The translations under genes were made by a program, and so were the position numbers. The notes below the pieces were generated by a model. That model was not told the DNA's origin, ran no database searches, and saw only the letters and a program-made list of their open reading frames with translations. Positions 21,971 through 61,037 of a stretch of DNA of 64,000 nucleotides are shown here, one piece after another. Within the stretch, counting starts at the first letter, position 1; each line of letters begins with the position of its first letter. Source of the stretch: Chiridota heheva (Eukaryota > Echinodermata > Holothuroidea > Apodida > Chiridotidae); contig JAIGNY010000696.1 in the NCBI GenBank assembly GCA_020152595.1, positions 146,001 through 210,000 of the forward strand, read 5' to 3'.

Positions 21971-22077
21971 GCATGGCACCATCAGTAGATTCAACGTCAA
22001 ATCCTCCTGACAGCACCCCTGCTCCAGTATTAAAGACAGAAATATGTGGAACAGAATTGCAAACATTCTGTAATATG
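21971..22077 (+). CDS. Internal exon of an M6/PLP-family proteolipid gene (end of extracellular loop 2)
   Basis: A 107-bp exon with a good acceptor (TTTTCTTTTCAG before it) and donor (ATG/GTAAGG after it). It starts in phase 1 (two bases completing a codon) and ends in phase 0. It encodes a Ser/Pro/Thr-rich stretch, then KTEICGTELQTFCNM. CGTELQTFC matches the PLP/M6 family pattern CGSNLLSIC: two cysteines eight residues apart, which form a disulfide in the second extracellular loop of PLP. Human PLP1 exon 5 (74 bp) has the same phases. M6/PLP proteins are four-pass membrane proteins, best known in neurons and glia. The product here should be the same type, with this segment outside the cell just before TM4. 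The exon is about 33 bp longer than its PLP1 counterpart; the extra residues form the Ser/Pro/Thr stretch. A 31-bp minisatellite ends 89 bp upstream and a TTAA element starts 71 bp downstream. The ATG at 21973 is internal, not a start. Confidence 0.83.
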
Positions 22078-27850: not shown

Positions 27851-28086
27851 ATCCAATCAACAAACAACAAACCAAGAAACAACCAATCAACAAACAGCCC
27901 ACCATCCAAACCCACACATATGACACGGAAGAGAACATGGATTGTTCGATTACCGAACATACTTCTCATCCAACTTTCAAAAACACTTGTTTCCAAAGAA
28001 ACAGGGACAGATCCAAAATAAAATAAGGCAACTCAGACCCAACAGATCTTCCTCAAGATAGCCCCCTGCCTGCTCCCTGCCTTCTT

Positions 28087-28752
28087 ATGGCGTGCAACAT
28101 AAACAATTACAATAACATTCACAACATTATACAATGGAACATAAGGAGCCTTAAAGCCAGTTCTAAAGAAATTGACCTTCTGGCCACCACCTTCAACCTG
28201 GTCGTCTTCTGCCTACAAGAAACCCTCTTGAAAACCACTGACTTTTATTCCCTCAACAACTTTGCTTGCTATCACAAACATCAAGTGGTCGCCGACAAGG
28301 CCTGTGGGGGCATCTCCATTCTTGTTGGACACGATATCCCACACAGACCTGTTCATGTGCACACTGACCTTCAGGCCATCTGTATGTCTATCTCCCTCCA
28401 CAAAAAGCTTCACTCTTTGCAATATCTATCTCCCCCCAATGCCAACATTCAGCCAACCAGCCTTAACAATAGTGACTTCAATGCCCACAACCCTCTGTGG
28501 GGCTCTAATACCACCACCTCCAGAGGCAAGCTCATCGAAGACACTCTTTGGCAGCACAGCCTCTCCTTGCTCAACACTAACTCCCCGACCTACCTTCACC
28601 CTGCCACAGCTAGGCTCCCTAATACCTGTATTGACCTATCTATCTGTTCCTTCAACCTCCTCTTTGATTTCGGCTGGAGAGTCACTGCTGATTTCTGTGG
28701 TAGTGACCATTACCCTCTTCTTATACACTCCAACCTTCAAACCCCCCACTGA
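28087..28752 (+). pseudogene. LINE ORF2 AP-endonuclease domain (internally deleted)
   Basis: Begins MACNINNYNNIHNIIQWNIR. Endonuclease motifs follow in order: IIQWNIRSLKA (the N/W-N metal site region), CLQETLL (catalytic Glu), DFNAHNPLWGS (DxNxH) and GSDHYPL (catalytic SDH). This nuclease nicks target DNA to prime reverse transcription. About 30 residues are missing between NIQPTSLNN and DFNAHNPLW, where LLLGDFN normally lies; a shifted frame over the same bases reads FTLCNIYLPP, showing an adjacent frame change. The frame ends at 28752, before the RT. Confidence 0.88.
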
Positions 28753-29599
28753 CCACATGCCCAATTGGAACCTCGAGAAGGCTGACTGGTCCCTTTTCAA
28801 AACCCACTGTGACCCCCCATCTTCCCCATTATCTCCCCCATTATTTCCCCATTATCTCCCCATTATCTCCCCCATCATCTCCTTGAAGCTGAGAATCCAT
28901 GTCAAACTTCAGTAATATCCTTATCAACATCGCCACCTGCTCAATTATCCAAACCTCCAAACCCCTAACCACTCCCACCCCCACCCCACTTTCTTCTCCA
29001 ACCCCAACCCCACCCCCTCTCCAACTCTGAAACTGCCATCAAAAACAGGAAAAGACCCTCAGGAACTTCAAAACTAACCAGACCACCCACAACCTCAACC
29101 TCTTTCACATCAGCCGTGCCAAGGCCAGGCGCACTATTAAAGACAGTAAAACCAACAGTTGGAACAACTTTATCTCTTCTCTTACCACCCCCACCCCCTC
29201 CACTAAGAAGATTTGGAGAATAGTTAACAGCTTCCATGGCAGGGTGGGCAAATCTCCCATCTCTCCCGGAATGGTGACTTTCTCATCGCGAAAAAGGACA
29301 TCGTTAACCACCTCACCTCGCCGCCTCTTTCAGCAATATCTCGTCCTCGGCCAACTACCCCAATGCTTTCAAAATCAAAAAAGCTTGTGATGAAGCCCGG
29401 AGTATCACCTTCCCCTCTGACAACTCCAAGAGCTACAACACCCCTCTCACCCTTTCTCAATTAAACCAAGCCATCCACGATGCTGGCTGCACCTCCAAGG
29501 GCCCAGATAACATCCACTAACACTTCCTAAAACACCTTTCCAACTTGGCCACCACTACCCTACTCACCATCCTCAACCACATTTGGTCCTCACACTCCT

Positions 29600-31020
29600 T
29601 TCCTATCCTATCTGGAGGACAGCTATTGTCATTCCCGTCTTAAACCGGGAAAGGACAATACCGACCCCTCCAGCTACCGCCCCATCGCCCTCACCTGCTG
29701 TCTCTGTAAATTTATGGGAAGGATCATTAACCAGAGACTAAACTGGTTCCTTGAGACCAACAGAATCCTCTCACCTCACCAAAGCGGCTTCCGGAAACGT
29801 CGCAATACCCTAGACTAGTTAATTACCCTCGACACCATTATCCGGGAAACCTTTGCAAAAAAGGAACACCTCATTGCCATTTTTTTTGACCTCGAGAAAA
29901 CTTTCGACATTACTTGGAAATACGACATTATCCGCAAACTTTACACCATCGGTCTCAAAGGCTGTCTCCCCATCTTTATCCAAATCTTCCTCTCCCCCAG
30001 GTAGTTTCAAGTTCGTATTAGCCACACCCTCTGTAACCCCTACCCCCAAGAAGAGGGCGTCCCCCAAGGCAGCATCCTCTCTCCCACTCTCTTCAATCTG
30101 AGCATTAATGACATCGCGGATAACCTTGGCCCCAACATCAAACGTACCCTCTACTTAGACGGCATCGCTATCTTCTACTCCCCTAGCTTTCCTTTTGTCA
30201 AAATAGACTCCAATTCAGCCTCAACCAGCTGCAAGTCCGGTGCAACAATATCAGCTTAAATTCTCCAAAGACAAGACAGTCTGCATGCACTTCCGTCATT
30301 TCAACAACTTCCACCCCAACCCGAACCTTGTGCTTAATGGCAATTGCATCCCTAAAGTTGAACACATGAAGTTCCTGGGTTTAACTGTAGACCCCAAGCT
30401 CTCCTACAAGCAACACATCACCAACCTGAAACTGAAATGCAACAGCTTCCTTAACATTCCCTGCCTCCTCTCCAACACCACTTGGGGTGCGAACCGCCAT
30501 GCTCTCCTCAAAATCTTAAGGCTCACCATTTGTGCCAAGCTTGACTACGGCAATATTGTCTACTGTGTTGCTCACAACTCATACCTCAACCACATCAACA
30601 CCATCCAAAATGAAGCCCTCAGGCTTTGTCTAGGTGCCTACAGGACCTCCCCAATCACCAGCCTTCATGCTGAAGCCAAAGAACCCCCCTTTCTACTTAG
30701 ATGTAGAAAGCTTAGCCTCTCCTATGCTTTTAGAGTCCTCACCAACACCCAGAACCCTGTTTACAACCTCATTAGGTACCCCAATTTCTCCACCCTCTTT
30801 GATAGGACTAAAACCCTATCCCCTCCCTTTAGCTTATGCCTTAAATCAAACCTCCTCCATCTCGGCATCAACCCCGCCACTCTCAGCACTTTCTCCTGGC
30901 CCACTTTTTCTCCTTTGGCCACCCCCCTCCCTTCTATCCACCTGGGCCTCTCCACTCATCACAAAACCCAAACCCACCGTAACCTTTTCATCAATCTCCA
31001 CAACCAAATCAAAGACCAAC
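29600..31020 (+). pseudogene. LINE reverse transcriptase, catalytic motif lost
   Basis: Frame pieces show RT motifs in order: VIPVLKPGKDN and SSYRPIALTCCLCK (29635-29715), SPHQSGFRKRRNTLD (about 29773-29815, then a stop), FFDLEKTFD (29884-29910, normally FDLEKAFD), GVPQGSILSPTLFNLSINDI (about 30055-30115) and YLDGIAIF (30152-30175), where the family has Y-A-D-D; the second catalytic Asp is Gly. A long open stretch from 30240 gives the thumb: MKFLGLTVDPKLSYKQHI, KLDYGNIVY, IQNEALRLCLGAYRTSPI. The enzyme would copy LINE RNA at the nick; this copy cannot. Spacer 28753-29600 has WNLEKADWSLF and many stops. Confidence 0.9.
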
Positions 31021-31028
31021 TCTTAAAC

Positions 31029-31330
31029 TACACCTCCATCTATACTGATGGCTCCAAGGAGGGCAACAAGACAGCTACTGTCATCCAAGACATCACCATC
31101 AGTAGCAGACTTCCCAAATACTCGTCCATCTTTTCAGCCAAAGCAAAGGCCATCCTCCTTACTCGAAGGCTGTTCTTACTTCTTTACTCAATCTTAAATA
31201 TACATCCCACCTCCTCCTCCAGAAACTGATTTCGCCCACCCTTTGCAGGAAAAGTATTCTTTTCTGAATACCCAGCCATGTTGGCATCCCTGGTAATGAC
31301 AGGGTTGATGCAGCCGCTAAGCTTGCCCTC
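31029..31330 (+). pseudogene. LINE RNase H domain remnant
   Basis: SIYTDGSKEGNKTA (31036-31080; first catalytic Asp in YTDGS), then IFSAKAKAILL (the expected SxxxAExxAI site, Glu replaced by Lys). After frame change it reads SHVGIPGNDRVDAAAKLAL (about 31275-31330), the HxGIxGNExAD motif holding the last catalytic residues. RNase H would remove RNA from the RNA:DNA hybrid. The tail to 31912 codes in shifted frames for DRWQSSWDSQIDNKL and a CP....R motif, also present in the other two copies. Confidence 0.87.
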
Positions 31331-31912
31331 AACCTCCTCCCTACCCCATTTCCCACACTCTTTCTGACATCCAACCGCTTATCGCTTCCCTTGTTTGTGA
31401 CCGCTGGCAAAGCTCATGGGACTCCCAAATTGATAACAAACTCAACAACATCCAGCCCACCATTCCGATCAAACCCACCATCAACAACCTCTCTTGTGTC
31501 GACAACGTTCATATTACCCGTCTTAGAATAGGTCACACCCACCTTACTCACTCTCACCACCTTATTGGCCCCCCCAACCCCTCTGCAAAAATTGCCATTG
31601 CACCCTCACAGTCCATCACGTTCTCCTTACTTGCCCCCTGTACAACCTTCCCAGAGCTTCCCTCCCTCCCCACAACTCAATCGCCGAGTTCTTCCAGAAA
31701 AACCCTCCCGATAAAATTATCTCCTTCCTTCATCTTGCTTCTCGCTATAACCATATTAAGTCCTCCTCTTCCACCCCCTTTCTCTACTTGTATTTCTCTC
31801 ATTCTCCCCCTGTTTTCTTTCCTTCCTACTTCTAGAATGATCTAACCTCTCAGGCACAATTTGACTTTCATTGTTGTGGTGCAGTTAAGCCTTCACCAAA
31901 CAAATAAACTAA

Positions 31913-34018: not shown

Positions 34019-35020
34019 GGGACCTTGTCCATTGGACCTGTAGGCCAGTCTACCCTTGTCAGCTGAAATAGTTGAAAATGTACTAAAATTCATGAAAACG
34101 GCTACAAGGTTATACAAATCGGTTTAAAATTGACCATTCTACAGCATTTTAAAACTTTTGATCTCAGAATAGGACAGCTAGAAAATTGCCTATGTTAACT
34201 TAATGTTTTTCCTTTCTTTCCCCAAATATTTTGAATGGGATAAGTTGGCTATAGTGAACAGGAAATTGTATTTCATTATAACTTTGACCCAGATTTAGCA
34301 GTTGAACACAATTTGAGAACATTTGATATTTGAAATGTGGGAAAGAAATATAAAGAATTACATTAAGGACTTTTAGCTGTATTCCTGTTCATACATGGTC
34401 ACTTTTGTGCATGCTGAAATTTTGTACAAATATGAATTTGTCATAATTTGAAACAAGTGCTATTGTGACCATGTAAAGACTGCTCTGCTCAGAATTTGAT
34501 GCTCTTTTCATCTGGATGAAAACTCTCTACCTGTACATATACCTTTAATTATGTCTTTGGGAACATCTCCCATGAACAGTGGCACATTAAGGCTCATCTT
34601 TCCATATTCCTAACTGGAAAATATAACAGAAATATACAGGCTGTATCCCTGCAAACATTAGTTTCTGTCTTCACTTTTTCAGCATTATTTTCCAAACTGC
34701 TCTTCGCTCTTTTATGTAACATCCAGGTTTCTGTTGACCTTCATGCTATACTTAGTGAGTCACCTGCTGTTTTTGTATTTTTTGATTGCTAAAAAATGAA
34801 AAACTTTAAACATTAAGTGAATACCATTAAAAATTAAGAATACAAAATCTCATCATAGGGTGCAAACTTAATGAGGCATTGCACTGTTGCCATGGCAACT
34901 CATTACTTCATGGGAATAAGAAATGTTATCAACCTGTTTTCTACATATGTGATCAATTCAAATCGTGGCCATAAATTGAATATATTAATTTGAACTGATT
35001 GTTGCATTTAGCACCTGCAG
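34019..35020. other. No gene seen
   Basis: AT-rich intronic sequence; nothing recognised. Confidence 0.35.
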
Positions 35021-35738
35021 TTTTCAATGCAGATGTATTTGCATTTAGAGATAACTAAAGTTTCAGTGCTAATGTATTTGCATTTAGAGATAATGACTGT
35101 TTCAGTGCAGATGTATTTGCATTTAAAGATAACTAATGTTTCAATGCAGATGTATTTGCATTTAGAGATAACGACTTTTTCAGTGCAGATGTATTTGCAT
35201 TAAGAGATAACTAAAATGTTTCAATGCAGATGTATTTGCATTAAGAGATATCGATTGTTTCAGTGCAGATGTATTTGCATTTAGAGATAACGACTGTTTC
35301 AGTGCAGATGTATTTGCATTTAGAGATAATGACTGTTTCAGTGCAGATGTATTTGCATTTAGAGATAACTAAAATGTTTCAATGCAGATGTAATTGCATT
35401 TAAAGATAACAACTGTACCAGTGCAGATGTATTTCATTTAGAGATAACGACTGTTTCAGTGCAGATGTATTTGTATTTAGAGATACCGACTGTTTCAGTG
35501 CAGATGTATTTGCATTTAGAGATAACGACTGTTTCAGTGCAGATGTATTTGCATTTAAAGATAACGACTGTTTCAGTGCAGATGTATTTGCATTTAGAGA
35601 TAACTAAAATGTTTCAATGCAGATGTATTTGCATTTAGAGATAACGACTGTTTCAGTGCAGATGTATTTGCATTTAGAGATAACGACTGTTTCAGTGCAG
35701 ATGTATTTGTATTTAGAGATAACGAATGTTTCAGTGCA
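35021..35738. repeat. 39-bp minisatellite, about 18 units
   Basis: The unit is GTTTCAGTGCAGATGTATTT followed by GCATTTAGAGATAACGACT. Variants carry CAATGCAG and AACTAAAAT. It is unrelated in sequence to the 39-bp array at 3.5 kb despite the equal length. Confidence 0.96.
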
Positions 35739-36607
35739 ACAGGATGATGTTTTGTTGTTAACATTAATGTGGCAACTTATTTGGCTTCAAGTGTGGTGTG
35801 TAACAGGTATATATGAGCAAACAAGAATGTATTGTAAGGGGGAGCAGGGCCAGCAGCCATACATATTATGGTAGAAGAAGAAGGATGTGACAAAGAGGTG
35901 CAATAAAGCATTGAATGAGGGGAAGGGGTGGGACCTGAGGGATGACAGCTTCATCATCATATTTTGTAAAGAGGTCATTTTGGCATTACAACTTTATACA
36001 CCTGCCAAAGTATAAGAACAAAGATGCTGAATCATTTTTGCCAAAGCCACATAATAATCAGGTTTTTGTTTTAAGTATTAATGTAATGTACAATACTCTT
36101 TTTTTTTAATTAACTACATAGATTTGCTTAAACATATACTTCATGTAAGAACAGCTTAGCTGCTCCTTGTGATAGATACTGGGGTTGGAAATAAATGTAA
36201 AATCCTGCGATTGAGGAGAAATGTTTTTTTTTTTATTGTTAACAAAGTAAAAGCTAACAAAGCCTTTGCGATGACAATGTTTGTGATGACAATTTAAGGT
36301 TTCCCCCATTTTGGAAAATTCTGTTTCTCCCTCATCAGGATATCTCCCAAACTTCATTTTGATCCAAATATTTGCACCATTAGTAAAATACATCTAAGCA
36401 TTCTGCAAAAAATCAAACAAAGACCTGCTATGCCCTTTTGATAATGATGAAAAATAAAGGTGCTAAAATATAGATAACGAATTCAATCACGGAAATCAAG
36501 TTACTTTCATTTTGGTGCAATAATTTTTTAAAGCATGGTTACTGGATGCGCTTGAATGCAACAATGAAATATGATATAGAACTGCCTCTGGTCGAGCTCT
36601 TGTAAAT
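35739..36607. other. No gene seen
   Basis: AT-rich with A/T homopolymers at about 36100 and 36223; no gene. Confidence 0.35.
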
Positions 36608-41082: not shown

Positions 41083-41320
41083 AAAGCAGGCGCCTGGACC
41101 CATAAAGCAAGCCCCTGGACCCCACTCTAAAGGTACACAGGCATTCAGCAATCAGCATGTTTGCTACAAAAATACTAGCGGGAAATACAGCTACTATCAT
41201 TTTATGTTTGTGGGTAGAAATGTAAGGTATACCTACCCTGAATTTTGTCCAAGATTGTAGGTCAGGCTGTTGTCTGCTCAGAACCTTCAAACTGAATCTG
41301 TTTATTCATGTGTTTACAAT
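41083..41320 (+). repeat. Dispersed repeat copy with about 3 units of a 21-bp motif
   Basis: Three units of CTGGACCCCTAAAGCAAGCC type, then about 200 bp (GGTACACAGGCATTCAGCAA through CTGTTTATTCATGTGTTTA) nearly identical to 44873-45069, where the same motif is expanded to about 19 units. Confidence 0.9.
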
Positions 41321-44474: not shown

Positions 44475-44872
44475 CCTCCTGGACCCTCCCTTAAAGCAAG
44501 CCCCTGGACCCTCCCTAAAGCAAGCCCCTGGACCCTCCCTAAAGCAAGCCCCTGGACCCCTAGCAATCCCCTGGACCCCTAAAGCAAGCCCCTGGACCCC
44601 TAAGCAATCCCCTGGACCCCTAAAGCAAGCCCCTGGACCCCTAAAGCAAGCCCCTGGACCCCTAAAGCAGGCCCCTGGACCCCTAAAGCAAGCCCCTTGT
44701 TCCTTAAAGCAAGCCCCTTGTTCCCTAAAGCAAGCCCCTGGACCCCTAAAGCAAGCCCCTGGACCCCTAAAGCAAGCCCCTGGACCCCTAGAGCAAGCCC
44801 CTGACCCCTAAAGCAAGCCCCTGGACCCCTAAAGCAAGCCCCTGGACCCCTAAAGCAAGCCCCTGGACCCCA
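44475..44872. repeat. 21-bp minisatellite, about 19 units
   Basis: AAGCAAGCCCCTGGACCCCT plus A, with variants TTGTTCCCT, ACCCTCCCT and a shortened AAGCAATCC unit. Three-unit relative at 41083. Glycine/leucine-rich open frame on the minus strand is a by-product. Confidence 0.95.
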
Positions 44873-45069
44873 CTCTGAAGGTACACGGGCATTCAGCAAT
44901 CAGCATGTTTGCTACAAAAACACTAGCAGGAAATACAGCTACTATCATTTTATGTTTGTGGGTAGAAATGTATGGTATACCTACCCTGAATTTTGTCCAA
45001 GATTGTAGGTCATACCAGGTTGTTGTCTGCTCAGAACTTCGAAACTGAATCTGTTTATTCATGTGTTTA
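44873..45069 (+). repeat. Second copy of the dispersed repeat flanking the 21-bp motif
   Basis: About 200 bp nearly identical to 41115-41320; differences include ATACCAGG inserted near 45014. Confidence 0.9.
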
Positions 45070-52099: not shown

Positions 52100-52650
52100 T
52101 CTAGCTTGCAGCACGGCGCTTGCGACAAGTAAACATTTTTAGCAAGTTTGCATTTGTTCCAAATACTAGCTTGCAGCACGCTTGTGACAAGTAAACATTT
52201 TGAGCAAGCTTGTATTTGTTCCATATACTAGCTTGCAGCACGCTTGCGACAAGTGAACATTTTGAGCAAGTTTGCATTTGTTCCAAGTACTAGCTTGCAG
52301 CATGCTTGCAGCATGCTTGCGACAAGTGAACATTTTGAGCAAGCTTGTATTTGTTTCATATTCCAAAGTGAACATTTTTAACAAGCTTGCATTTGTTCCA
52401 AGTACTAGCTTACAGCACGCTTGCGACAAGTGAACATTTTGAGCAAGCTTGTATTTGTTCCAAATACTAGCTTGCAGCGCGCCTGTGACAAGTAAACATT
52501 TTGAGCAAGCTTGCATTTGTTCCATATACTAGCTTGCAGCACGCTTGCGACAAGTGAACATTTTGGGCAAGCTTGTACAGTATTTGTTCCATATACTAGC
52601 TTGCAGCACGCTTACGACAAGTGAACATTTTTAACAAGCCAGCTTGCTGC
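52100..52650. repeat. ~62-bp minisatellite, about 8 units
   Basis: The unit is CTAGCTTGCAGCACGCTTGC, GACAAGTGAACATTTTGAGC, AAGCTTGTATTTGTTCCATA, TA. One shortened unit is near 52355. It lies about 1.5 kb upstream of the 66-bp exon. Confidence 0.95.
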
Positions 52651-52949
52651 AAGATAGTTTTTCTGTAAGTGATATTCTTTTCTTCAATTCTGTGACTGTT
52701 CAAATAGTTATGGATCATCTCTTTCAAAATCTGTAAACTTGATTACGGAAAAAAGTTGACACCTGAAATATGTGTAGAGATCAAGAGTATGGGATTAACA
52801 CCTTAATGAGTTCTACTGTAATTTAAAGAGATCAGTAAAAGGATCAGTGTTATGAAGTAATTTTGGAACCAGTAGCTTGCATTGGAAACTAGTTTGAGAC
52901 TCTATCAAGCCGGTATAAGATAACTGTAAGATAATAGGTATAAGCTACA

Positions 52950-54170: not shown

Positions 54171-54236
54171 CACGATAGCATTACCTTGGACATATGGTTG
54201 ACCATTACAGCAAGTATTATTGTTGTTATTTCAATG
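54171..54236 (+). CDS. 66-bp exon of the M6/PLP-family gene (start of transmembrane segment 4)
   Basis: Flanked by an acceptor (CTCTTTGTCTTTGCAG) and a strong donor (ATG/GTAAGTAC). Its 22 codons, phase 0 at both ends, read HDSITLDIWLTI followed by TASIIVVISM: a short polar lead, then a hydrophobic membrane span. Human PLP1 exon 6 is also 66 bp and phase 0 and encodes the equivalent start of TM4, so length, phase and topology all agree. The upstream intron is about 32.1 kb and the downstream intron to the first alternative terminal exon is 5,096 bp. Residue identity to vertebrate PLP is low here, as expected for a membrane span. The assignment rests on position between the CysX7Cys exon and the ALAANHTY exons and on exon structure. 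No second candidate exon was seen between them. Confidence 0.82.
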
Positions 54237-57613: not shown

Positions 57614-58131
<518 letters not shown>

Positions 58132-59332
58132 TTGTTTTTGGGAGGGTGGAGTTAAAAAAAAAGGAGGAGGGGGATTCGTTTTGAGAAAAAAAAAGGACAA
58201 AATACCCCAAAAGGCCAAAAATAAACAAATTGTCATTTTTCAGCATTTTCACTCCCCCCTCCCTTTTCCCCTCTCATTCTCCTCACTTATTTTTGAGGGA
58301 AAATTTGATAATATGTGCAGGAATCCTACAATCCCACACCTTAATATGAACACTGACACAAAACCTTTTGCTTCTGGTTCTCTGTGTGTAGGATGTTGGT
58401 ATATACAAAATTCACAAACCTAATCAGAAGCATCTTTTCATGTACACCTAATTGCAGAGCATATGCAAAAAAACAAGAACATTAGCAATTCGTGAACTTC
58501 GTTAGCAGTGCACATTTCTGCTTTCAAGTGTTCTTTAACGCTCTTGACATTTCCTCCCAGAACGCTAACATGCGTTAAGAGATGGCAGCCATGAAAATGG
58601 GATGAATGGCTGGGACTGATGAAAAATATTGATTTTTACATACTTTTAACATGCTTAGAAGGCAGCATCCATCAGTGCAAAGTGTATCAATGTGTATATC
58701 AGAACATCTATGATGTCCCCACATGTCCTGTCAACCCTCTCCTTTCCTTTACAACTGCATCCATCTTCCCCCCCCCCCACACGTTCCCCCTCCCACAGTT
58801 TTTCCGCTTGTAGGTTTTGGGGGTCTTGGTCCCCCGCCCCACCCCATCGAAAAGGTGACCATTCCTATGCCCCTAATCATCGGGATGAGTATAAATCATA
58901 TTATAGCACAAGGCAAGTGATGTATATTTGTCATGAATTTTTGCATGTAATAACCTACACTTTGTATCGTAAGTATGTTAGCACCAATAGCAAATAATAG
59001 TCACATGAATTGCTAACCTAGCTGTACTTGTTTTGATTCTAGTTTGATGGTTTCAATGTATTTGATCTCATACCATGTTAGTTTTTGTTAACAAATCACA
59101 TTGAATCATTTTTCATGCTAATTCATGTTTTAAATGCATACAGTAGAAGCAAAACTTGTTCAAAATGTTTTGTTTGAAATTGCAAAAAAGTTTACTGCAG
59201 ATTTTATTTGAGTAAACAATTTTTTTTTCTTTTTCGAAATGCATTTTACCGCTTAATTAAGAAAAATAGAGGGAGCTCTAGCTTTACATCTTAATATTTT
59301 GCAATTTGTTTTGTGCCTTCTTTTGCACTTAG
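58132..59332. other. No gene seen; end of intron up to the terminal-exon acceptor
   Basis: G/A-rich patch at 58140-58200, C-runs near 58770; no exon until 59333. Confidence 0.4.
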
Positions 59333-59461
59333 ATTCACTTCTTAATGGCGCTTGCGGCCAACCACACCTACACCCGCCTTTTCCACAAGGACCTGCCTAG
59401 CTCACCAAAATACAGCAACAACTTTGGATCACCAGGGTTGGCAGAAAGTCCCATTTACTAA
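59333..59461 (+). CDS. Alternative terminal exon A of the M6/PLP-family gene (short tail)
   Basis: Acceptor CCTTCTTTTGCACTTAG, then phase 0 codons IHFLMALAANHTYTR that complete TM4, followed by a cytoplasmic tail with SPKYSNNF and ending GLAESPIY and a TAA (59459-59461). This matches the family's last exon (LTFMIAATYNFAVL in PLP). The exon is a tandem paralogue of the exon 221 bp downstream: the first 15 residues are identical, while most of the base differences in that stretch are synonymous, so both copies look selected for protein function. No good donor follows. The simplest model is a choice of 3' splice site: using this acceptor ends translation here, and the second copy becomes 3' UTR. 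An AATAAA at 59462-59467 overlaps the region just after the stop and could allow early polyadenylation, but this is weak. Confidence 0.77.
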   Translation: MHFLMALAANHTYTRLFHKDLPSSPKYSNNFGSPGLAESPIY

Positions 59462-59553
59462 AATAAAAAAATCACAAAATATTCAAAGGGAGAAAAATGT
59501 GACTGTTCAGTTGATTCAAAGACAAAATGTTTTGTGCGTTTCCTTTGATTCAG

Positions 59554-59724
59554 ATTCACTTTCTAATGGCCCTTGCCGCCAACCACACTTACACACGGAT
59601 ATTCCAGAGGGACATGCGTAACAGCCCCAAGTACACCAACAGCTTTGCGGGGATGCGCTACAGCGACGGTGAGATGCCGCTGCAAGAACCACTAAACATG
59701 AGAGACGAGAACACCCAGTTTTAG
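59554..59724 (+). CDS. Alternative terminal exon B of the M6/PLP-family gene (long tail)
   Basis: Acceptor GTTTCCTTTGATTCAG, then IHFLMALAANHTYTR, completing TM4, and a 41-residue cytoplasmic tail with SPKYTNSF, GMRYSDGEMPLQEPL and the C-terminus DENTQF; stop TAG at 59722-59724. It follows exon A by only 92 bp. The last residues, NTQF, resemble the GTKF C-terminus of vertebrate PLP and fit a class I PDZ-ligand pattern (S/T-X-hydrophobic), which exon A (SPIY) does not. The tail is longer than in PLP1. PLP/M6 tails face the cytoplasm, so the two exons should give isoforms with the same membrane domain and different intracellular contacts. Family call is good; isoform use is inferred. Confidence 0.85.
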   Translation: MHFLMALAANHTYTRIFQRDMRNSPKYTNSFAGMRYSDGEMPLQEPLNMRDENTQF

Positions 59725-61037
59725 CAGCGGTCTATCCCATAAATCTTGCCATTTTCCAGAGCTTGGTGTTAATACCATGAATGGATGTATATATTTACTA
59801 AATATATATATAATAGCATGCAATGTTCAAATTGATGTGGTGTTGATTTAAATATGTATTTGCAATTGTACAAAAAAAAATTGACACATTTCATGACATT
59901 AATGCAGTGATTTTGTTACTATTTTTTTTTTCTACACCACAATTGTATGATAAATGTATGCAATCATTCGTATTATTATTGTCGCTTTTACCATTTTTCA
60001 GCAGGTGCCCGTTATATTTTGGACAAGTTTTGGACTTTTAGTATATATGCAAATATATGCAAGGAAATTTGCTTTGCATAGAGTGACATATAGATAGTTT
60101 GATCATATTTTAGTCAATTTTGAAGAACAAACAGTATTTTACGTTTTACTTTGTAATTTAGACCAAAGTGTGGATAATTTCAAGTTTGGTTCGGGGATAT
60201 TGGTTGGGGGATACAGGATCAGCACATTGTTCTCTGTGGGGTATTAACACTGTATGCTCATATCAAACAATCAATTCTTGAGCTGGCTCAGGACTTATAT
60301 TTTACCTATGTAAATTATCTTTTCTGAAATTGATATTCCCGAAGTGCGGATAAAAGAATATGATGAGAAAGTAATTTGTTTACCTCTTCTTACTTCATTT
60401 TAAGTTATTTGTTTTCAATTTTAAGAATATTGTATGTTTTTTTTGCACTCACTGAAAAGTGTGCCACTTAAATGAGACAAGTCATTTGTTTCATGGAAGT
60501 GTGTCATATGTTACACTCTAAGTTATTGAGAATAACAGTTAAGAAAGAAATTTCAAAAATCTTGATGAATAAGTTGTAATACCCAAAAGTGTGCAAACAA
60601 GTGTTTCACCTTAAGCTAAGAAACACATGGCAAATACTGAAATTCACAGATTTAAAGGTTTCATGTGTAAAAGATATAATTAAAACGTACATATTTAATA
60701 CCAAAGAACATGTTTTTGTATTAAAATGACCAGAGAGTTCCCCTCAAATGTTGTGCCCCTCCCCCTCCTTCCTAAATGAAACTTATCTTTATTCATGTGT
60801 GAAAAGAAAAAAACACAGTATTATTCGTTGGTTGTAGAATGTTGCAAATTTTTCTGGCAAAATTCAATGGATCACTGGCAGATCTGTGGTAATAAATCAA
60901 CAATTATTCAGTCAATATTATCTCACCTTCTAGAAATGTGCACCTGTGGTATGGACACCAGTGCATGTTGAAGTTATGATAGACCAAATTGCAAATCTCA
61001 AAAGTTGATGACACTGCGGTTCACAGAGAGGAATAAA
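59725..61037 (+). other. Probable 3' UTR of the M6/PLP-family gene
   Basis: Non-coding sequence after the stop of exon B. The first AATAAA hexamers I see are at 60891-60896 and 61032-61037, with a weaker ATTAAA at 60679-60684. This suggests a 3' UTR of at least about 1 kb. The true end is not determined. Confidence 0.4.

Follow-up and report, generated by a model that had tools for sequence, protein, structure and literature searches.

A tandemly duplicated last exon in an echinoderm M6/PLP gene, with both copies probably kept as alternative C-terminal exons

We predict that the last exon of an echinoderm gene of the M6/PLP family of nerve-type membrane proteins was duplicated in tandem long ago and that both copies have been kept as alternative C-terminal exons (probability about 0.82). 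The two exons, 7A and 7B, lie in the window, a 64-kb stretch (bases 146001-210000) of the 1.38-Mb contig C693, which is part of a 1.1-Gb draft genome in 3744 contigs. On the best reading, the cytoplasmic tail that follows the fourth transmembrane segment (TM4) is exchanged through a choice of 3′ splice site or of last exon, and the cell can probably give one M6/PLP protein either of two tails. From the exon 6 donor, which follows 54236, splicing into 7A would yield a protein with a predicted length of 262 residues; the 7B acceptor lies 221 bases downstream, and its use would yield one of 276 residues. Both isoforms would finish TM4 with the same 15 residues, and the difference would be confined to the cytoplasmic tail. 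The sequence establishes the gene model, both open exons, their acceptors and the selective constraint on each copy. We further infer that cells splice both exons and regulate the choice between them, and that each tail has its own binding partners.

Table 1. Positions in the window of the paired last exons, their acceptor tracts, two upstream exons and candidate poly(A) signals
Feature	Position	Strand	Description
Exon 5	21971..22077	+	107 bp, second extracellular loop, ...ICGTELQTFCNM, phase 1 to 0; top of loosened scan
Exon 6	54171..54236	+	66 bp, phase 0/0, most of TM4, donor ATG/GTAAGT
7A acceptor tract	59307..59332	+	TGTTTTGTGC...TTAG
Last exon 7A	59333..59461	+	end of TM4 and tail, 42 residues, ends SPIY, stop TAA; open frame, acceptor
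AATAAA behind 7A stop	59462..59467	+	possible poly(A) signal of transcripts with 7A alone; motif only
7B acceptor tract	59528..59553	+	TGTTTTGTGC...TCAG
Last exon 7B	59554..59724	+	end of TM4 and tail, 56 residues, ends NTQF, stop TAG; open frame, acceptor
AATAAA	60891..60896	+	would serve as poly(A) signal of a long 3′ UTR, as would a second one at 61032; motif only

Sequence and selection in the paired exons

Both exons have acceptors and start in phase 0, as an earlier note on this DNA had claimed (TTAG followed by ATT in 7A, TCAG followed by ATT in 7B). They open with the same 15 residues, IHFLMALAANHTYTR, and have different ends, again in agreement with that note. Its statement that the first 45 bases differ mostly at synonymous sites holds without exception, with 7 of 7 differences synonymous. 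The copies had also been said to diverge after this common start; the ends do differ, but there is no simple divergence past codon 15, and likeness runs to codon 31, with 23 of 31 residues identical and SPKY[ST]N[NS]F common to both. Similarly, the proposed duplicated unit of about 221 bp, splice site included, agrees with the 221-bp spacing, but the local alignment spans just 59307 to 59426 and the size of the unit is inferred. The exons are adjacent, homologous and of equal phase, each with its own acceptor and its own stop, as in homologous tandem terminal exons.

A dN/dS comparison of the copies, which takes in 15 to 31 codons and 10.5 to 18.8 synonymous sites of one genome, gave dN 0, pS 0.667 and dS 1.65 for codons 1-15. 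For codons 16-31, pN is 0.26 and dN 0.32, and for all 31 codons dS is 1.07 and dN 0.15. Because all seven differences are synonymous and dN is 0 over the 45 bases, purifying selection has acted on both copies since an old duplication (0 non-synonymous and 7 synonymous differences in 15 codons, within one genome). By sequence comparison, the part that finishes TM4 is frozen; the tail is freer, yet not random.

Tandem duplicates are frequently lost, and just one of the two exons may be in use, the other being a relic of the duplication. We consider this improbable, since a dN of 0 beside near-saturated synonymous sites needs constraint on both copies, and the acceptors and frames of both exons are intact. 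Had one copy drifted freely over half the distance, the 15 codons would have escaped any amino-acid change with a probability of about 4e-11 (6e-8 at dS 1.07). In simulated free drift, all 15 residues were kept in 1 of 20000 copies at distance 0.3 and in 0 of 20000 at each of the distances 0.5, 0.8 and 1.0. The chance that the pair is an assembly artefact, with two alleles or collapsed reads placed side by side, is negligible: the assembly is a draft of many contigs, but a 67% synonymous difference and different tails far exceed allelic divergence, and each copy was found once in the genome. Given identical amino acids alongside near-saturated synonymous sites, we rejected a dead copy, an assembly artefact and recent gene conversion, and the duplication of the last exon looks real and old.

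A protein search of the 1.1-Gb genome for a third or other copy of the last exon, with the best candidates scored, gave two matches up to E 10, which are 7A and 7B. The two forward matches of a degenerate-pattern search of the genome are the same exons, with 0 matches in the reversed control.

An open frame per se is weak evidence that 7A and 7B are exons. In freely drifting simulated copies, 31 codons stay open in 32 to 59% of cases, and of the window's 291 pyrimidine-rich + strand AGs, 34 (7A and 7B included) precede 42 open codons. The weight of the case is therefore on the synonymous pattern and the family match. The GC content of the exons is 0.49 and 0.52, compared with 0.28-0.30 in the spacer and near flanks. 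The 7B tail has a GC3 of 0.76, and its GC is reached by 80 of 4937 intron-6 windows. The 7A tail has a weakly coding-like composition and past codon 31 is without a homologue to test against; it is the least certain piece because its GC3 is 0.52 and 320 of 4979 intron-6 windows reach its GC.

The host gene and its relatives

The gene had been assigned in the earlier note to the M6/PLP family, and the joined products bear this out with matches to Pfam Myelin_PLP (PF01275) at E 4e-28 over residues 5-238. The scores are 99.2 and 99.3 bits (residues 5-237 and 5-238), well past the curated cut-off of 23.8, and positions 6-229 and 6-230 of 231 are covered, which is nearly the whole profile. The C-terminal piece alone (exon 6 plus exon 7) gave E 1e-4 with 22.7 and 22.5 bits, slightly below the cut-off. 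The translation reads MALCRC at the N-terminus and has four Cys between TM3 and TM4 (SFC, SC, IC and FC), so it carries the conserved N-terminal Cys and large-extracellular-loop Cys of the PLP/M6 family. By its profile match and these Cys the predicted host gene is a member of the M6/PLP family. Family proteins have four TM segments and both ends in the cytoplasm, and the hydrophobic stretches of the product may correspond to such a layout, judged by eye and from the profile coverage.

The rebuilt gene spans about 114 kb from the ATG and has six coding exons per product, of 173 (from the ATG), 160, 154, 107 and 66 bp, followed by 129 or 171 bp. All introns of the model are GT-AG, with phases 2, 0, 1, 0, 0. 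GT-AG and phase were imposed as scan conditions for exons 3 and 5 and observed for the remaining exons; the signals and phases of exons 3 and 5 are therefore not independent evidence, and the independent check of the model is the Myelin_PLP match of the joined product. The exon plan (these phases, imposed for exons 3 and 5, and the 66-bp penultimate exon) may match the family plan as seen in PLP1. The joint after 54236 in the earlier note fits the model, this being the donor end of the 66-bp exon that bears most of TM4.

A Myelin_PLP profile search of the genome (E up to 10) gave five weak matches. These include the TM1 exon at C693:91280 (22.6 bits, E 0.05) and the TM3 exon at C693:130212 (16.5 bits, E 2.5), each singly below the cut-off of 23.8; both are on the same strand as the window and upstream of exon 6. 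A match on C3248 (E 1.8) has two stops inside and was taken as noise. Both missing exons were the top matches of a loosened scan for AG/GT-bounded open stretches, with the phase expected from the PLP1 plan, and lie at C693 124018-124177 (TM2) and 167971-168077 (exon 5 in Table 1). Stricter AG/GT scans for them, one up to 99 bp, found nothing. A tblastn search of the window with PLP1 and M6 proteins gave nothing above noise (last exons at E 3 to 4 and 0.8), and neither last exon searched alone matched NCBIfam. The PDB sequence search returned two matches only, at E 0.09 and 0.3, both to unrelated transporters. A second exon 6 is absent from the 154 kb of C693 examined (next match E 0.49).

The genome also encodes a paralogue on C1822, with a TM2 exon (704779-704938), a TM3 exon (709041-709212), a 60-bp exon (714046-714105) and a probable 74-bp loop exon at 713225, one of five scan candidates. 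Its last exon, at 724690, is a coding stretch of 336 residues that starts VHYIINFSANFAKLR, and a second copy of it was absent from the 40 kb examined. Since the paralogue shows a single, different last exon in those 40 kb, the pair belongs to this gene and is not common to all members of the family in the genome. Most of the paralogue's last exon is a repeat-rich tail (SREPHSSRETYPS..., YAGSVHDQ...) that ends EYFI; PLP/M6 tails are not known to come anywhere near the length of this 336-residue stretch. An exon-2-like match at C1576:235530-235643 (- strand, 25.8 bits) is the sole one of the five genome matches above the profile cut-off and may belong to a third gene of the family. The rest of that gene, last exon included, was not convincingly found within the 20 kb examined.

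The window holds several other features. Intron 6 of the M6 gene contains about 500 bases of mostly TA repeat (57617-58130), and 52100-52655, about 1.5 kb upstream of exon 6, is a tandem array whose unit, judged by eye, has about 62 bases (tactagcttgcagcacgcttgcgacaagtgaacattttgagcaag...). On inspection of the ORF list by eye, long overlapping open stretches at 28027-31845 resemble the endonuclease and reverse transcriptase of a LINE-type element in decay. A tandem repeat at 35008-35747 has the translation ADVFAFRDNDCFS, with long stretches open on both strands. Two near-alike stretches, at about 41147-41257 and 44805-45008 (SNQHVCYKNTS.KYSYYHFMFVGRNV.YTYPEFCPRL), are probably a dispersed repeat; the second adjoins KQAPGPL repeats. 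Elsewhere in the genome there is a bindin exon (E 7e-34), with 0 matches in 14 control genomes. Bindin being a marker of such animals, the exon points to an echinoderm, and probably to a sea urchin or a close relative.

Choice between the two tails

The earlier note had argued that a transcript ending in 7A escapes nonsense-mediated decay, its stop being in the last exon. This agrees with the donor count: none of the 8 GTs within 59333-59553, which is 7A plus the spacer, makes a good donor, and the best has 5 of 9 donor consensus letters. For this reason splicing from 7A to 7B is unlikely. The two exons would thus hardly be strung together, and a transcript would take one acceptor or the other from exon 6. 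The same note held that the choice of 3′ splice site changes the tail only. Both exons do complete TM4 and supply the tail, but the AATAAA at 59462 allows separate poly(A) sites too, and the choice may therefore be between terminal exons with their own poly(A) sites as well as between 3′ splice sites. With 7A joined and the transcript running on, 7B would become 3′ UTR; with cleavage after this AATAAA, 7A would be a terminal exon of its own.

A variant of this explanation is that alternative polyadenylation decides as much as splicing does. Exon 7A would be a full terminal exon that has a poly(A) site to itself and almost no 3′ UTR, and 7B would come into use when that site is skipped and the 7B acceptor prevails. 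We hold this variant tentatively, at rather less than even odds. The AATAAA starts on the base after the 7A stop, and one would start no more than 3 bases from any given point with a probability of about 0.002, a coincidence noticed post hoc; about 0.06 are expected in the 92-base spacer, and the + strand of the window has 43. U/GU-rich stretches follow downstream, at about 59497-59545. On the other side, the motif by itself is no proof, a 3′ UTR of just a few bases is unusual, and cleavage would fall just 55-80 bases or so upstream of the 7B acceptor.

The likeness of the pyrimidine tracts reported in the earlier note comes down to ten bases, TGTTTTGTGC, at -26 to -17 of both acceptors. Neither strand of the 64-kb window has this run at any other position, and when the letters of the two tracts were shuffled 20000 times, an equally long identical run in the same register never arose. 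That it has survived beside near-saturated synonymous sites hints at a part in splicing. The 7A acceptor is of the TAG type, commonly weaker than CAG, which we counted against the reading that both exons are used.

Competing RNA pairing could also set the choice, with the two TGTTTTGTGC copies as selectors that vie for a single docking site in intron 6. With G-U pairs allowed, a stretch at 58906 can form 10 base pairs with each copy, and PGRP-LC is described as a precedent among fly terminal exons (PMC9013439). Four shuffled introns, however, gave best pairings of 9, 9, 10 and 9 bases, so that the 10-base pairing is no better than in shuffled sequence; we rejected it as a switch and regard this explanation as very improbable.

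Tail function and comparison with known systems

The predicted tails differ in character. The 7A tail is short and has three Ser-Pro pairs, and the 7B tail is longer and more charged. Class I PDZ ligands have the C-terminal form [ST]-x-hydrophobic, T-x-F included, and the NTQF end of 7B is a possible ligand of this class. PLP1 ends TKF where 7B ends TQF. These features are functional leads. A tail swap would be expected to matter because the C-terminal end of rat Gpm6a is needed for filopodia and for association with clathrin, with K250, K255 and E258 as key residues (PMC6131581). In zebrafish M6Ab, S263 of the tail is needed for filopodia (PMC3197635). The mapping of M6a in COS cells speaks against a leading part for the tail: membrane-tubulating activity was assigned to the N-terminal half, and the C-terminal half was without significant activity (PMC3230579).

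An animal with two tails on one M6 body would be a natural swap experiment on tail function. A more elaborate possibility is an ancient echinoderm M6 switch, kept across echinoderms and used by tissue, in which the poly(A) signal behind the first stop competes with the second acceptor about 90 bases on and toggles between a PDZ-binding 7B tail and a Ser-Pro-rich 7A tail. We think this doubtful as a whole; if true, such a switch would re-address a membrane-protrusion or junction protein without a second gene.

The closest known proteins are those of the PLP/DM20/M6 family (GPM6A, GPM6B, PLP1 and Drosophila M6). The likeness consists of the Myelin_PLP match over residues 5-238, a pair of Cys at the N-terminus with four more in the large loop, and a last exon that bears the end of TM4 and the tail, as in the exon plan of PLP1. 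Mammalian M6B isoforms were reportedly treated by Werner in 2001. The Cys features of the family, at the N-terminus and in the large extracellular loop, are described in PMC3438117. Isoforms of Drosophila M6 differ in the N-terminal cytoplasmic part, and M6-D loses TM4 through a frameshift (PMC11698045, PMC3438117). The variants there are N-terminal, in contrast to the C-terminal pair here, and the available portions of these two papers mention no paired last exons for M6. Neither paired last exons in PLP/M6 nor an echinoderm M6 gene came up in the literature searched, which took in few subscription papers, so that absence is unproven.

In VEGF-A exon 8, two 3′ splice sites 66 bp apart in one terminal exon swap the C-terminus (PMC5852594). 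The likeness is the swap through a pair of 3′ splice sites; the available text of that paper does not present those of VEGF-A as products of exon duplication, whereas the present sites are 221 bp apart and homologous. Human capping protein beta has homologous 3′-terminal exons with mutually exclusive use, and Drosophila pip (homologous) and PGRP-LC have neighbouring terminal exons, exon groups or 3′ regions that are also used in a mutually exclusive way (PMC3228551, PMC9013439). These genes share neighbouring terminal exons with the M6/PLP gene, and in capping protein beta and pip, going by the same sources, the exons are homologous, as they are here. The present pair has a 92-base spacer, an AATAAA directly behind the first stop, and a strict 15-residue membrane part with freer tails, and is a clean case of terminal exon duplication, with the membrane part frozen and the tail freer. 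Homologous tandem terminal exons are thus already known from other genes, and the predicted M6/PLP pair is a further case.
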